Shown: in pieces, positions 22,167 through 61,600 of the stretch
Position numbering within the stretch: position 1 is the stretch's first letter
Layout: each line of letters starts with the position of its first letter
From: an uncultured Verrucomicrobiota bacterium
GTDB lineage: Bacteria > Verrucomicrobiota > Kiritimatiellia > CAIVKH01
Length of the DNA stretch: 64,000 nucleotides
Assembly: GCA_937873455.1 (NCBI GenBank)
Contig: CALMYG010000027.1
Span: 1 to 64,000 of the forward strand
Direction: 5' to 3'
Notes under the pieces: generated by a model
Told to the model about the DNA's origin: nothing
Database searches by the model: none
The model's input: the letters and a program-made list of their open reading frames with translations, nothing else
Program-made: the position numbers and the translations under genes

Positions 22167-22340
22167 TCAAAACTCCGCGCAATTGAACACGATACGGTAA
22201 ACGCAGGCCTCGCTACGGCAGACCAACTTGCATTTCTCGCTTACCAGTGCCGCGCCGCAAACCGGGCAAACCGCCGCGGAAGGCGCCTGCTCTCCGTCGC
22301 AGGCCGAAACCGGGGGTTTTTCTTCCGCAGGTTCGCTCAT
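22167..22340 (-). CDS. Tiny zinc-ribbon protein, coupled to the GH31 gene
   Basis: A 57-residue protein. After a polar, glutamate-rich leader it has the cysteine pattern CPVCGAALVSEKCKLVCRSEAC followed by YRIVFNCAEF, that is two CxxC-like knuckles plus extra cysteines. I read it as a small zinc ribbon; no function is known to me. The ATG (22340-22338) overlaps the TGA of the GH31 gene (22339-22337) in an ATGA arrangement, and its stop lies 3 bp before the EVE gene. That packing is the strongest evidence that it is a real gene. Confidence 0.7.
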   Translation of the reverse strand: MSEPAEEKPPVSACDGEQAPSAAVCPVCGAALVSEKCKLVCRSEACVYRIVFNCAEF

Positions 22341-25300
22341 GGCCTGAACGCTTCCAGCCGGTACACCCGGTACGGCGCGGTTGAGGTGTCGGTTATGGAG
22401 ATGAACCCGGTTCCGCTGACGTTGGTATGGGGAACGAGGGGGAGCCACCCCAAACCGTTCAACAGGTTGGTTGAGTATTGAACTCGATACCGCCGACCAC
22501 TTACCGCCAACCAGGAAAGGCTTGGCGGCTCGACAATGCCGGCCAACTGCAGAAACGAAGCCGGATCCACAATCGAAGTGCCGGCGATAAATTCTTGCCG
22601 GTTGTCGAATCCATCGCCATCGATATCCCAAACCGCGTCGTTGGTGGCGTAGGGATTCAAGCCGTAGTAGGCCTCCCAGGCATCGGGCAATCCGTCGCCA
22701 TCCACATCCGAATTCCAAGCGGAAACAACACCAAACCGCTGGTTGGTTTCGTTAAAAGTAAAGGTGTAGAATCCCTGGTAGGAACCAGAAAGCTGGATAT
22801 TCGCACCGTTCAGGGTTCCGGTACGATTCAACAGGGGCGGCACGATGGATATCGGATTGTCGTCACCCCAATTCGCGACTTCCCAGGCGTCGTTGGCGAC
22901 GAACTTGAATTGGATATTGGTCCAGCCGGTGAGATCAAAAACCCCGGCCCATTGGTTCGGACCGACCTTACGCAGGTTGGCCGCGCGTTGATTCCAGAAA
23001 TTAAAGGTTCCGGCCACGGCCAGATTGGTATAGAGCGTCGAAAACGAGGGGGTGGTATACGTGACCGGGGGGGCAAAGTCGGCCTGGACGACCCGATGCG
23101 CACCATCTCCGGGGAACTTCACGGTAAGCCGACGATCCAGGAAGGAATAGGACCAACCGGCTTGGCCAGATTGCTCCAATTCCTCCCGGTTGGCCAGACG
23201 CGTCACGCTATTGCTGTTCATCCGGACCGCCGTCACCGGATCGAGGTCATACACGATGAGATAAAAATCGCGGGCGCCCGGATGATAGGAACCGACGCGG
23301 GCTCGCGAGGTAAAGGTCAGGCTGTTGGAAGTGCTGACGGCTTCAAGCGGGGTGCGGGCAACTACGCCGGCGAGGTAATTGGTGGTTTCGCCGTCGTCTT
23401 CGTAAAGCTCAACACGGTTGGCGCCGCCCGGCCAATGATGCAGGTCCAGCGAGGCGGGTTGAAACTGGTTGGCGTAATACTGAACCGGCCCCATCGGGAT
23501 GATCGCCCCGGCACGGCTAAACAAAGGCATGTAGGCCAGCGAAGCGGGCACGACAACCGTTTGACCGCCGGCAAACCGCCGCCCGGTATCCCAATGATAC
23601 CAGGCCGGGCCCGCCGGCAGATAGACCTCTCGGGTCGATGCGCCACTCAGATAAACGGGTGCGGCCAGCAGATCCCGACCCACCATAAAGTCATAATCGT
23701 TCAAGCTGTACGTGTTGGTGTCGGCTTGAAAATAAAAAACCGTCGGTGCGTTGAGCGGAATGCCGTTGGTCGTGGAGGCGGCGGCCTGGGAATAGAGATA
23801 AGGCATCAGTTGGTAGCGAAACTTGGTCCAGCGCCGGTTGGAAGCCACATAATCTTCGTCAAAGACCCACGGCTCCTGGTCGGCCGTGTCCAACGTAGTG
23901 TGATTCCGAAACATCGGCTGCAGCGCCCCGATCTGGGTCCAGCGGGCGATCAACTCATTGTTGCTGTTATCCACAAATCCGCCAATGTCATGACCGAACC
24001 ATGCCTGACCGCTGATCATCACATTCAAGCCAAAGGGCGTGTTAAAACGCAGGTGATCAAAGTTGGATATATTGTCGCCCCCCCACCCCGCCGCGTATTG
24101 CTGAATGCCGGGCCAGGCGCTGCGGCTGAGTACGAAAGGACGCTTGTGAGGATGCTGCATCCGCAAGGCCTCGTACGTCACCCGGCACTCCCAAATGCTG
24201 TAGGTGTTTTTGTTGATGGCGTGCCATTTGCGGGTGTCGCTTACTTCAAGCCCCCCGCCATACCGGCCATCGAGAAACCAGAGAATGTTCAGCGGCATGG
24301 CATTTTCATTGGGCTCATTGAGGTCATTCCAAATCCCTTCAAAGCCATACGTGCCGAGGTAATTCGTCAACAGCCCGCGCCACCAGTCCGCCGCCGGAAC
24401 GATACTGAAGTCCAACCAGGAAATCCGCCCGAGAAAATTCGTGCCGACATACGTGGACAAGTCGTTGTTCTTGAGAAAATACAATTCGTCCCGGGCGGTG
24501 GCGTAGAGCGGATCGTTGGTGGTAAGCAACGGTTCGATCAAGGGAATCAGCTTGATGCCGAGATCCGCGGTTGCCTGCACCAGGCCGGGTACGTTGGTGT
24601 AGGCATCGTTGAACGTCATTTGCGCATTCTGACCGTTCACGGTAGCTTGGCTGCCGATATCGAGGTAGATGGCGTCGCCCGGAAAGTCATTCGCCCGCAT
24701 CGCCGTGGCGACTTCCATCACCCGGTCTTGGCTGAAATACGAATGACGCGACTGATGAAACCCCAGCGCCCACTTGGGAAGAACGGCCGGGCGACCGGTC
24801 AGCTCGCTGTAGCGATCAATCACCGCGGGCATGGTCCGGTTCGTACCTCCGCCAAAGAAAAAGTAGTCCAGTTGGTCGTCGCCCGCCTCAAACAACCAGG
24901 TATTGGTGGAAGCGTTGAGATTGAACACCGGGCGCGCCGGATTGTTGAAAAATAGTCCGTAGGCCAGTGCCGGGTGGTTGGTGCCGGCTGGACGCACCCC
25001 ATACATCATCGGCAAGGCAGTATAGCGGGGCGTTTTCTCCTCACCGAATGCATAGGTATCCTGGTTCCAGAATTGGATGGCCCGGCCCCGCCGGTTCAAC
25101 GGTCCGGCGGTATCGCCCAAGCCAAAAAAGGCATCCCGAGGATCCAAGCGCTTGGTGCTCCTCAATTTAAACCCGGATGGAAAATTGGACACCGAAACGG
25201 ACCCGGCCCATCCCACCTGCTCGTAGGCGGCCAGGTCATCAATCTGCTTGTAGTCGAGATTGTATTCGATCCGGTCATCCAGCAGAACCGGATAACCGGA

Positions 25301-25690
25301 AGGATCAAGAAAGTGGACCTGAAACCGGTTGCTCAAGACAATGCTGATGCGCAAGGCATCGGTCTGAATCAGGTAATTCGTGGCATTCGGTTGTGAGAAG
25401 GTCTGGGTAAACGGCGGCCAATCGTTAAACGGCTTATTGATGGCAATTTCCTCGCGCTCATATAATCCGCCAAAATGGAAACGAACCCGCACGACATCCG
25501 GCGCGTATGGGGTAACTTCAACCGTGCCGCTGGGGTGTAATTCAAAGAATACCTGCCGGTTACCCGCGCCATTGGTAATGAGTGTTATGGCGGTGACATG
25601 CAAGGCGGTAACTACCGTGGCATACGCGTTCGGAACCAAAAACAGGCCGAAAACAACAACCACACGCTTAAGAAAAGTTAGCAGATTCAT
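22337..25690 (-). CDS. Secreted GH31 alpha-glucosidase-type enzyme with C-terminal EF-hand-like module
   Basis: A 1,117-residue exported glycoside hydrolase of family 31, which removes alpha-linked glucose or xylose from oligosaccharides. The signal peptide ends near AYAT (residue 25). The catalytic nucleophile is Asp456 in GIWNDLNEPNEN, and the acid/base is Asp568 in GHDIGGFVD. After the (beta/alpha)8 barrel and the usual C-terminal beta domains, a beta module (TFNFWNQR ... WAGVFDLTGW) resembles starch- or glycogen-binding sheets. An EF-hand-like stretch (DVDGDGLPDAW, then DIDGDGFDNRQEFIAGT) and a RYRVQYSTNL tail finish the protein. The same last two parts close the GH13 amylase, which suggests a shared export or surface destination. 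First gene of the leftward operon; the mobile repeat at 25787-25909 lies just upstream. Confidence 0.92.
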   Translation of the reverse strand: MNLLTFLKRVVVVFGLFLVPNAYATVVTALHVTAITLITNGAGNRQVFFELHPSGTVEVTPYAPDVVRVRFHFGGLYEREEIAINKPFNDWPPFTQTFSQPNATNYLIQTDALRISIVLSNRFQVHFLDPSGYPVLLDDRIEYNLDYKQIDDLAAYEQVGWAGSVSVSNFPSGFKLRSTKRLDPRDAFFGLGDTAGPLNRRGRAIQFWNQDTYAFGEEKTPRYTALPMMYGVRPAGTNHPALAYGLFFNNPARPVFNLNASTNTWLFEAGDDQLDYFFFGGGTNRTMPAVIDRYSELTGRPAVLPKWALGFHQSRHSYFSQDRVMEVATAMRANDFPGDAIYLDIGSQATVNGQNAQMTFNDAYTNVPGLVQATADLGIKLIPLIEPLLTTNDPLYATARDELYFLKNNDLSTYVGTNFLGRISWLDFSIVPAADWWRGLLTNYLGTYGFEGIWNDLNEPNENAMPLNILWFLDGRYGGGLEVSDTRKWHAINKNTYSIWECRVTYEALRMQHPHKRPFVLSRSAWPGIQQYAAGWGGDNISNFDHLRFNTPFGLNVMISGQAWFGHDIGGFVDNSNNELIARWTQIGALQPMFRNHTTLDTADQEPWVFDEDYVASNRRWTKFRYQLMPYLYSQAAASTTNGIPLNAPTVFYFQADTNTYSLNDYDFMVGRDLLAAPVYLSGASTREVYLPAGPAWYHWDTGRRFAGGQTVVVPASLAYMPLFSRAGAIIPMGPVQYYANQFQPASLDLHHWPGGANRVELYEDDGETTNYLAGVVARTPLEAVSTSNSLTFTSRARVGSYHPGARDFYLIVYDLDPVTAVRMNSNSVTRLANREELEQSGQAGWSYSFLDRRLTVKFPGDGAHRVVQADFAPPVTYTTPSFSTLYTNLAVAGTFNFWNQRAANLRKVGPNQWAGVFDLTGWTNIQFKFVANDAWEVANWGDDNPISIVPPLLNRTGTLNGANIQLSGSYQGFYTFTFNETNQRFGVVSAWNSDVDGDGLPDAWEAYYGLNPYATNDAVWDIDGDGFDNRQEFIAGTSIVDPASFLQLAGIVEPPSLSWLAVSGRRYRVQYSTNLLNGLGWLPLVPHTNVSGTGFISITDTSTAPYRVYRLEAFRP

Positions 25691-26015
25691 GGGCGCAAAA
25701 CCGCTTTAACGAATGTCAAGGCTAACATACACCAATTGATGTCGCAATACACCATGAATTGTAAAAGTTGTTGGAACGGTGGAACGGGGCGCATCTCCGA
25801 GTTTTGACAAGTGCCTTGGTGTAGGCCGACCCTCTGCGGTCGGCGGAGAGGCGCCGGGGACAGAGCCCCGGTCTACAAGGAACCTTTGCACAAACTCGGA
25901 GATGCGCCCTTGGAACGGAAGTTTTACAAGAACGTGCTTTGGCAAAATGTCCGAAATCAAGTACACTGGATGTTTTGTTGCGAACCATTGAGGATAATTT
26001 CCGGATTTTCTCCTT
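25691..26015. other. Intergenic region between divergent GH31 and RND-efflux operons, occupied by a mobile repeat
   Basis: These 325 bp separate two divergent operons. The central 123 bp are the MITE-like element at 25787-25909. The remaining flanks hold no recognisable gene, and no convincing promoter could be chosen. Any promoters for the two operons must lie in the roughly 95-105 bp on either side of the element. Confidence 0.6.
25787..25909. mobile_element. 123-bp MITE-like element, copy 1
   Basis: Terminal inverted repeats of 18 bp (GGGCGCATCTCCGAGTTT and its exact complement) bound the element. It differs from the copy at 61360-61482 at two positions only. Left flank GTGGAACG (25779-25786) and right flank TTGGAACG (25910-25917) match at 7 of 8 bases, like a slightly decayed target duplication. 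The interior has the TGTAGGCC core that recurs elsewhere in the window. No coding capacity. Confidence 0.85.
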
Positions 26016-27104
26016 ATGAATACACGATTATGGCTGACCTATTGCTGGCTGTGCGCGGCGCCTTTCCTCCTCGCGGGTTGCGGTCGTCCCCCGCCCACCG
26101 GAGGCCCACCCAGTGAATTTTCGGTCTTGGCGGTAGTGGCGCCGGTCGCCGAAGAACCCTTGCGGGCAACGCTGCAAGTTGTTGGCACGCTGCGGGCCCC
26201 CCATGATATCGAAATCGTCAGCGAAATCAGCGCCACCGTGCGTGACGTGCTGTTTATTGAAGGCGAAGACGTGGCGGCCGGTCAGCTTCTCGTGCGATTG
26301 GATGATGTCAAACTGCAGGCGCGCGCGACTGAAGCGTCGGCTCGGTTTCGTCTGGCCCGGACCAACCTGGAACGCCGCCGGGAACTCCTGGCCAGCCAAA
26401 CCATATCCCAGCAGGAGTTTGATCAGGCGGAAGCGGAATTCGACGCCGCGGAAGCGCTGATGAAACTCGCGGAACGGGAAAAGCAGGACGCCCAAATCCT
26501 GGCGCCCTTCGCGGGAAAAATTGGAGAGCGACGGGTCAGCCCCGGTCAATGGCTCACCCCGGGCGCTCCAGTAACCCGGCTGGTACAAACCGATCCGATG
26601 GAACTCGAGTTCCGGATGCCGGAACGCCACGTGGATAAAATCGTCATGGGTCAAACCGTATTCATCCGGGCGGTCGGCTTGCCCGGAGCAGCCCTCGAGG
26701 GGCAGACCTTCTTTATGGATCCGGTCGTGGATGAAACGTCACGTACCGTGTTGGTCAAGGCACGCCTCGCCAATCCGGATAGTCGCCTAAAACCCGGCAT
26801 GTTTGGGCAGGTCGACGTGGTGATTGCCGAACGTGAACGCGCGCTCATACTTCCTGATGCCGCCATTCGTTTTCGGGGCGATCAAGCGTATGTGGTCGTC
26901 GTGAACGAAGAACAACGCGCCGAGTTCCGTGATGTTACCGTCGGGCACCGGATGGAAGAACGCGCGGAAATCACCGCGGGCCTGGTTGCCGGCGAACGGA
27001 TCGTGGTTGAAGGCTTCCAAAAAATGGGGCCGGGTACCGCCATTGATATCAGTCCGGCATCGGCGCGTTATGGAATCACGCCGCCCCCCGCCCCGGAATC
27101 CTGA
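26016..27104 (+). CDS. RND efflux periplasmic adaptor lipoprotein (AcrA/MexA family)
   Basis: A 362-residue membrane-fusion protein that links an inner-membrane RND pump to its outer-membrane channel. The N-terminus is a lipoprotein signal with lipobox LLAGC (cysteine at about residue 22). It then has the lipoyl half-motifs, an alpha-helical hairpin (about residues 95-150, arginine/glutamate/alanine rich, LERRRELLASQTISQQEFDQAEAEF-like) and beta-barrel and membrane-proximal domains (VVDETSRTVLVKARL; GLVAGERIVVEGFQKM). It is first in an operon with the pump (8 bp downstream) and TolC. No strong Shine-Dalgarno precedes the ATG. The substrate range is unknown. Confidence 0.92.
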   Translation: MNTRLWLTYCWLCAAPFLLAGCGRPPPTGGPPSEFSVLAVVAPVAEEPLRATLQVVGTLRAPHDIEIVSEISATVRDVLFIEGEDVAAGQLLVRLDDVKLQARATEASARFRLARTNLERRRELLASQTISQQEFDQAEAEFDAAEALMKLAEREKQDAQILAPFAGKIGERRVSPGQWLTPGAPVTRLVQTDPMELEFRMPERHVDKIVMGQTVFIRAVGLPGAALEGQTFFMDPVVDETSRTVLVKARLANPDSRLKPGMFGQVDVVIAERERALILPDAAIRFRGDQAYVVVVNEEQRAEFRDVTVGHRMEERAEITAGLVAGERIVVEGFQKMGPGTAIDISPASARYGITPPPAPES

Positions 27105-57547: not shown

Positions 57548-57646
57548 GTTGTAGGCCGGGGCCAGCCTGCCCCCTGCCAAGCAGGCGGGGCTGGCAGGCT
57601 CTGTCCCCGGCGGTCCTCCGCCGACCACAGAGGGTCGGCCTACAAC
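57548..57646 (-). repeat. TGTAGGCC-family palindromic repeat, 99 bp
   Basis: Perfect 11-bp terminal inverted repeats (GTTGTAGGCCG and its complement). On the minus strand, its first half is nearly identical to the core of the MITE-like elements (TGTAGGCCGACCCTCTG, then GGTCGGCGGAG and GCCGGGGACAGAGCC), with an extra C/G-rich palindromic insert. It lacks the 18-bp outer arms. Confidence 0.75.
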
Positions 57647-61294: not shown

Positions 61295-61600
61295 GATTCG
61301 ACGCCAGCCTACAGGAAAACCGGAAAAACGCCATAGCTATTCGCCGTTGCCCCGGAAAAGGGCGCATCTCTGAGTTTTGACAAGTGCCTTGGTGTAGGCC
61401 GACCCTCTGCGGTCGGCGGAGAGGCGCCGGGGACAGAGCCCCGGCCTACAAGGAACCTTTGCACAAACTCGGAGATGCGCCCCCGGAAAAATGCGATCTG
61501 CTTGCCGCCGTCATCCGGTGATGGTATTGACGCGATGGCCGGACGAAAAAAAAGAAGGAAACACGGACGTGAACGGTCCGCCGGCCAGAGGTTATCTTGC
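61295..61600. other. Intergenic region between the divergent antiporter and GH18 genes, occupied by a mobile repeat
   Basis: Of these 306 bp, 61360-61482 are the second MITE-like element. The remaining 65 bp on the antiporter side and 118 bp on the GH18 side hold no recognisable gene or clear promoter. Confidence 0.6.
61360..61482. mobile_element. 123-bp MITE-like element, copy 2
   Basis: Same length as copy 1 (25787-25909), with two substitutions; one of them reduces the terminal inverted repeats to 17 of 18 matches. It is flanked by perfect 8-bp direct repeats CCGGAAAA (61352-61359 and 61483-61490), as expected of a target-site duplication. No coding capacity. Confidence 0.9.

Follow-up and report, generated by a model that had tools for sequence, protein, structure and literature searches.

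A 123-bp MITE with a REPIN core, probably of the ISKra4 family, lies near promoter-like sites in a Verrucomicrobiota genome

Within the 64,000-nucleotide stretch analysed here (the window), one copy of a 123-bp repeat lies between two divergent genes, with an alpha-glucosidase/alpha-xylosidase-like gene on one side and, on the other, a putative sigma70-type promoter facing a gene for an efflux RND periplasmic adaptor. A second copy and a shell-less relative of the repeat's core are found elsewhere in the same window. The features are as follows.

22337..25690, minus strand: alpha-glucosidase/alpha-xylosidase-like gene, divergent, on the other side of copy 1
25779..25786, plus strand: left target duplication of copy 1, GTGGAACG, imperfect
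25787..25909, plus strand: copy 1 of the 123-bp MITE, probably ISKra4-type (sequence, genome search and copy alignment)
25787..25804, plus strand: left 18-bp terminal inverted repeat (TIR) of copy 1, GGGCGCATCTCCGAGTTT (TIR pattern search)
25821..25876, plus strand: REPIN core of copy 1, GTAG-GCCGACC-ctctgc-GGTCGGC ... CCGGGG-acagag-CCCCGG-tCTAC
25892..25909, minus strand: right 18-bp TIR of copy 1, a perfect inverted match to the left one (TIR pattern search)
25910..25917, plus strand: right target duplication of copy 1, TTGGAACG, 7/8 match
25939..25967, plus strand: putative sigma70-type promoter, TTGGCA-17-TACACT, toward the RND adaptor gene (consensus match)
26016..27104, plus strand: gene for an efflux RND periplasmic adaptor, preceded by the putative promoter (TIGR01730)
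57551..57644, minus strand: shell-less relative of the REPIN core, without TIRs
61352..61359, plus strand: left target duplication of copy 2, CCGGAAAA
61360..61482, plus strand: MITE copy 2 (sequence, genome search and copy alignment)
61394..61449, plus strand: REPIN core of copy 2
61483..61490, plus strand: right target duplication of copy 2, CCGGAAAA, 8/8

An earlier note had described the two copies as 123 bp long, bounded by 18-bp inverted repeats and differing at two positions; all of this was confirmed, with the mismatches at element positions 12 and 86 and the TIRs of copy 1 perfect. That note had also proposed a whole-genome search, and in the window's own assembly (G000; 4.12 Mb in 197 contigs, 92.6% complete, with contigs breaking at repeats) we identified 17 complete copies and four partial ones at contig edges, about 21 in total, with E-values down to 1e-59, so the resemblance of the pair is not due to chance. 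Among 16 aligned copies, 10 are letter-identical, and the remainder carry one or two substitutions or a deletion of 2 or 10 bp. A search of the same genome with the TIR pattern, permitting up to three mismatches, returned 50 matches compared to two in a reversed control. The repeat is thus a MITE by the usual description, being short, bounded by TIRs, free of a transposase gene and dispersed in near-identical copies.

The complete element had no match in 193 related genomes, including one of the same genus (G001), while its core alone did match, which indicates that amplification of the 123-bp form was recent and local. Relatives identified by name are Verrucomicrobia and Lentisphaerae MAGs. 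Also, a viral collection yielded one stray TIR match and a plasmid collection none, and an Rfam scan of the element gave nothing credible (best score 19.7 bits against a cut-off of 80). TIR matches encountered in unrelated phyla, among them those in Acidobacteria and Hyphomonas, were single, partnerless ends and were taken as chance.

Examination of the flanks showed that insertion duplicates the target. For copy 1, the octamers GTGGAACG and TTGGAACG agree at 7/8 positions as previously reported; copy 2 has an exact octamer duplication (CCGGAAAA on both sides) which the earlier note lacked, and which becomes 9/9 (CCCGGAAAA) when both repeats are allowed to include the terminal C of the element. 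When the flanks of the other copies were listed, as had been suggested, direct repeats were present throughout much of the family, at 9/9 in 11/16 aligned copies and at 8/8 in two. The exact 9-bp duplications each have a different sequence (TTTTTAAGC, GTTTTAAGG, AAAAGCGGC, GCCGGGATC, CCCGCCCAA, CGTCACAAT, TCAGGGCAG, GACAAAAAA, TGCCCCCAG, TTGTTGGAT and TTCCATAAA); that of L014 (TTCGGCGG) is exact at 8 and, like copy 2, at 9 with the element's last C shared, and the duplication is imperfect in three of the 16 copies, copy 1 among them. With 11/16 exact at nine, two shareable and three imperfect, the family duplication length is 9 bp, and in copy 1 the duplication has aged or been repaired; the target duplication originally proposed for copy 1 stands, and its length of eight does not. 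Identical copies at unrelated loci with exact 9-bp duplications support the earlier view of a MITE that was recently active and moved in trans, as do the absence of the element from the related genomes and the ISKra4 elements described below, which match it in ends and duplication length. Gene conversion, offered there as an alternative, is superfluous given that every copy has its own duplicated target.

Between the arms, the core consists of a pair of GTAG-tagged REP hairpins, inverted relative to each other, the arrangement that defines a REPIN. The earlier note mentioned neither this core nor a link to ISKra4. REPINs of the same architecture, representing the nearest but a non-identical variant, flank both sides of a RAYT gene at L131 on contig C173 (NF047646, 97.9 bits against a cut-off of 80). 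The left REP half of the element has 19 exact matches, 17 of them within ISKra4 shells, and the shell-less relative at 57551-57644 has another palindromic repeat (CCAGCCTGCCCCCTGCC..GGCAGG) interrupting one of its hairpins. A shell in another genome, G193, holds a different doublet (GTGGACCGCGACCTCCGGGCGCGG and its partner) which is also found outside shells there. For the window's own genome there is good support that an ISKra4-type MITE captured a REPIN, and the data hint at repeated capture in the phylum as a whole. We found no earlier report of a REPIN inside a MITE in the literature searched, in which subscription journals were thinly covered.

Several RAYT-like genes were observed at L131, L132 and L133 (C173, C67 and C101), each with its own distinct flanking REP family, and some of these families form tandem arrays with a spacing of about 93 bp. 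Separately, an ATPase-like gene at L021:1503-3059 (C22) is bordered left and right by identical REPIN halves, with a 123-bp MITE approximately 230 bp beyond; the captured REPIN may derive from this locus.

Ends of this type bound a wider array of elements. In the own genome, the motif GGGCGCATCYCYGA has 147 matches at up to one mismatch (three in the control), many at contig ends, and bounds an older, diverged family of 212-411 bp with asymmetric inner ends (e.g. L071:347-726, L085:430-837 and L087:379-789), for which 9/9 duplications were found at L077, L085, L087, L090 and L098. The same arms also bound unrelated cores, as well as elements of 66 and 95 bp that lack a REP core. Among other genomes, G193 possesses elements of 162 and 161 bp that have this TIR type and 9/9 duplications, and an Opitutaceae MAG (G194) a 108-bp element at L188 with the same TIR type, a different GTAG core and an 8/9 duplication. 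Further palindromic cores lie beside the same end type in G194, G195 and G196, where many of the elements have only one good end. Closer inspection of L085:430-3235 identified two MITEs in opposite orientation around genes which, by sequence reading, are exonuclease-like and phosphodiesterase-like; this may be a composite unit, and a clear duplication was seen at the first MITE only. The 2806-bp L085 interval had been considered as an autonomous element, and was set aside as really two separate MITEs around ordinary genes.

A link to a mobilising enzyme came from complete ISKra4-family insertion sequences (IS) of the same phylum, which share GGGCGCATC ends and 9-bp target duplications with the 123-bp family. 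These are a 1805-bp IS at L226, with a perfect 18-bp TIR (GGGCGCATCTGCGTAATT) and duplication CCGCGTTTT, and a 1477-bp IS at L227, with TIRs GGGCGCATCTCAG, duplication CCCACTCAC and a transposase frame broken in two. ISKra4 was the top model for both transposases (E = 2.8e-43 and 3.1e-40), and for a decayed C-terminal stretch in a genome of the same class (G011, L206:2007; E = 3.6e-13, profile positions 315-413); as their scores fall under the model's curated cut-off, the three proteins are regarded as divergent ISKra4 members. The G011 remnant is located about 74 bp from GGGCGCATCTCCGAGT, which is 16/16 identical to the TIR of the 123-bp element. A match of this extent beside an ISKra4 transposase was found only at this decayed remnant, and the TIRs of the complete ISKra4 IS diverge from that of the 123-bp element after GGGCGCATCTC/G. 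Three other ISKra4-like IS (L214, L217 and L223) have long perfect TIRs (GGGCGCATGGCAGTTC) without a 9-bp duplication, and the flanks of the one at L223 are inverted repeats of each other.

No ISKra4 transposase (NF033572) was found in the own assembly (197 contigs, 92.6% complete, broken at repeats), so that we infer mobilisation in trans by ISKra4, and do so strongly, from shared features, namely the ends, the duplication length and the insertion preference. Movement requires such an enzyme somewhere, but its presence in the same genome does not define a MITE. Searching for an autonomous element in this genome, we inspected 40+ regions around TIR-like ends, and no candidate stood; open reading frames recurring near such ends were AAA+/DUF4143-like ATPases, by sequence reading, or repeat artefacts. 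Likewise, GGGCGCATC ends near six Y1_Tnp genes included none that were convincing.

The insertion preference was derived from an outward scan from each element end for TTGACA/TATAAT-like pairs, which produced a single peak of -35-like boxes 26-29 nt from the junction. Promoter-like pairs occur on either side of the element and in both orientations. Using a tested window of 25-30 nt and pairs scoring at least 8.5, 9/16 copies have a sigma70-like -35 box at that distance, whereas 4000 shuffles averaged 0.88 and never exceeded 5; a -35-like match at L007 was left out, since a neighbouring MITE forms the left flank there. The distance window was taken from the 123-bp copies first and then applied to the other sets. 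At the same promoter distance, boxes were found for 4/8 of the G193 and G194 elements (0.47 expected), and the IS at L226 lies at a distance of 27 from TTGACG-17-TATACT. The signal is weaker for the older 212-411-bp family, with 6/25 and an equally high count (6/25) in the neighbouring 18-23 nt window. Near copy 1, the -35 of the putative promoter begins 29 nt past the element and its -10 ends 48 nt short of the RND adaptor ATG, and the region contains no terminator-like site; for copy 2, the expected distance holds no promoter. The earlier proposal that the element could affect promoters thus holds for placement, through consensus matches at 26-29 nt in 9/16 copies, while an effect on expression is a possibility.

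According to Guerillot et al., some members of the ISKra4 group target positions ahead of sigmaA promoters, at 13-17 bp counted from the IR junction, and this occurs on both sides where the two IRs are close to complementary (PMC3942029). The placement preference observed here is the same in kind as this published targeting, at a distance about one helical turn longer, where the two counts may treat the duplication differently.

Together, these findings make it very probable that the element is a non-autonomous, REPIN-carrying MITE of the ISKra4 family (prokaryotic Mutator-like, DDE), mobilised in trans and guided to promoters. An ISKra4 transposase supplied in trans would bind the TIRs and make 9-bp staggered cuts, guided to promoter regions. 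In this lineage, a REPIN (a GTAG REP doublet of the RAYT type) may at one time have been captured between ISKra4 ends, after which the transposase, and not RAYT, would have spread the chimera; such a history would leave most copies of this REPIN variant within ISKra4 shells, as 17/19 exact half-site matches are.

Dispersal of the element as a REPIN by RAYT, through HUH-type single-strand transposition and with the outer 18-bp arms as an extension of the REPIN, would fit the resemblance of the core to RAYT-flanking repeats, the RAYT genes in the own genome, and the folding of the complete 123-mer into one hairpin (z = -7.4/-7.5). Transposition of the IS200 type by HUH enzymes is not known to make such target duplications, whereas exact 9-bp duplications lie outside the arms here. 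Furthermore, the arms bound unrelated cores and the core-less 66- and 95-bp elements, the core also occurs armless, and ISKra4 IS share the end motif, leaving this explanation very improbable. The very stable hairpin, together with an intergenic position near promoters, could instead reflect an element that is not primarily mobile but is selected at divergent promoters as a structured RNA or for regulation, as a terminator, attenuator or insulator. We regard this as scarcely credible, given that the element belongs to no Rfam family, is missing as a whole from the same-genus genome and 192 others, showed no conservation at orthologous positions in relatives, lacks a terminator-like site in its region, and shows duplications and identity across unrelated loci that point to insertion.

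A MITE moved by a different DDE family making 8-9-bp duplications (e.g. ISLre2, IS256 or ISL3) would be compatible with ISLre2 being the second-best model for the L226 and G011 proteins, and with an own assembly in which no mobilising transposase was identified. ISKra4 outscores ISLre2 by far for all three proteins, however, and the likeness of TIRs and target duplications was observed at intact ISKra4 elements. Separate searches of the own assembly covered two other models, DDE_Tnp_1 (PF01609) and IS256 (PF00872), and neither had a match. Mobilisation by such a family is accordingly unlikely, and we retain the ISKra4 assignment.

Within known systems, the element shares with ISKra4 IS (p-MULT 4, Mutator superfamily) GGGYGCA-type ends, 9-bp duplications and, on either side, a position ahead of promoters of the sigma70/sigmaA type, but differs in its length of 123 bp, the lack of a transposase gene, its REPIN cargo and a -35 at 26-29 nt rather than the published 13-17 bp (PMC3942029); p-MULT elements in general have IRs of 18-39 bp and direct repeats of 8-9 bp (PMC3942029). 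It has in common with REPINs, GTAG REP doublets and their RAYTs (PMC3116915, PMC3733652) the two inverted GTAG-tagged hairpins, and differs from those systems in that the core is held within 33-34-bp arms with TIRs and target duplications, which implies that copies spread by DDE-type transposition. Similar to MITEPsy1 (100 bp, 18-nt TIRs; PMC3189936), NEMIS and ERIC, it is short, TIR-bounded, non-coding and multi-copy, and it shares target duplication with MITEPsy1 (PMC3189936); unlike these, it is linked to ISKra4 instead of IS5-like parents and carries a palindromic REP cargo. Pack-MULEs, the non-autonomous plant Mutator elements bearing host sequence (PMC3942029), are likewise non-autonomous and Mutator-type, carry foreign DNA and insert near gene starts, but the present element is bacterial and carries a selfish repeat instead of a gene fragment.

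REPINs are usually accounted for by RAYT transposases alone; here, on the evidence of the target duplications, most copies of one variant apparently spread through another class of enzyme. Placement upstream of promoters would offer a way for a bacterial MITE to land harmlessly yet be able to alter regulation, and the findings suggest that ISKra4-type elements were recently active in a Verrucomicrobiota-type genome. More tentatively, ISKra4-type shells in Verrucomicrobiota might repeatedly capture host REPINs and deliver them to fixed promoter-upstream sites, with two unrelated transposition chemistries, RAYT/HUH and ISKra4/DDE, acting on one chimera. If this is true, REP sequences would acquire a promoter-directed route of dispersal.
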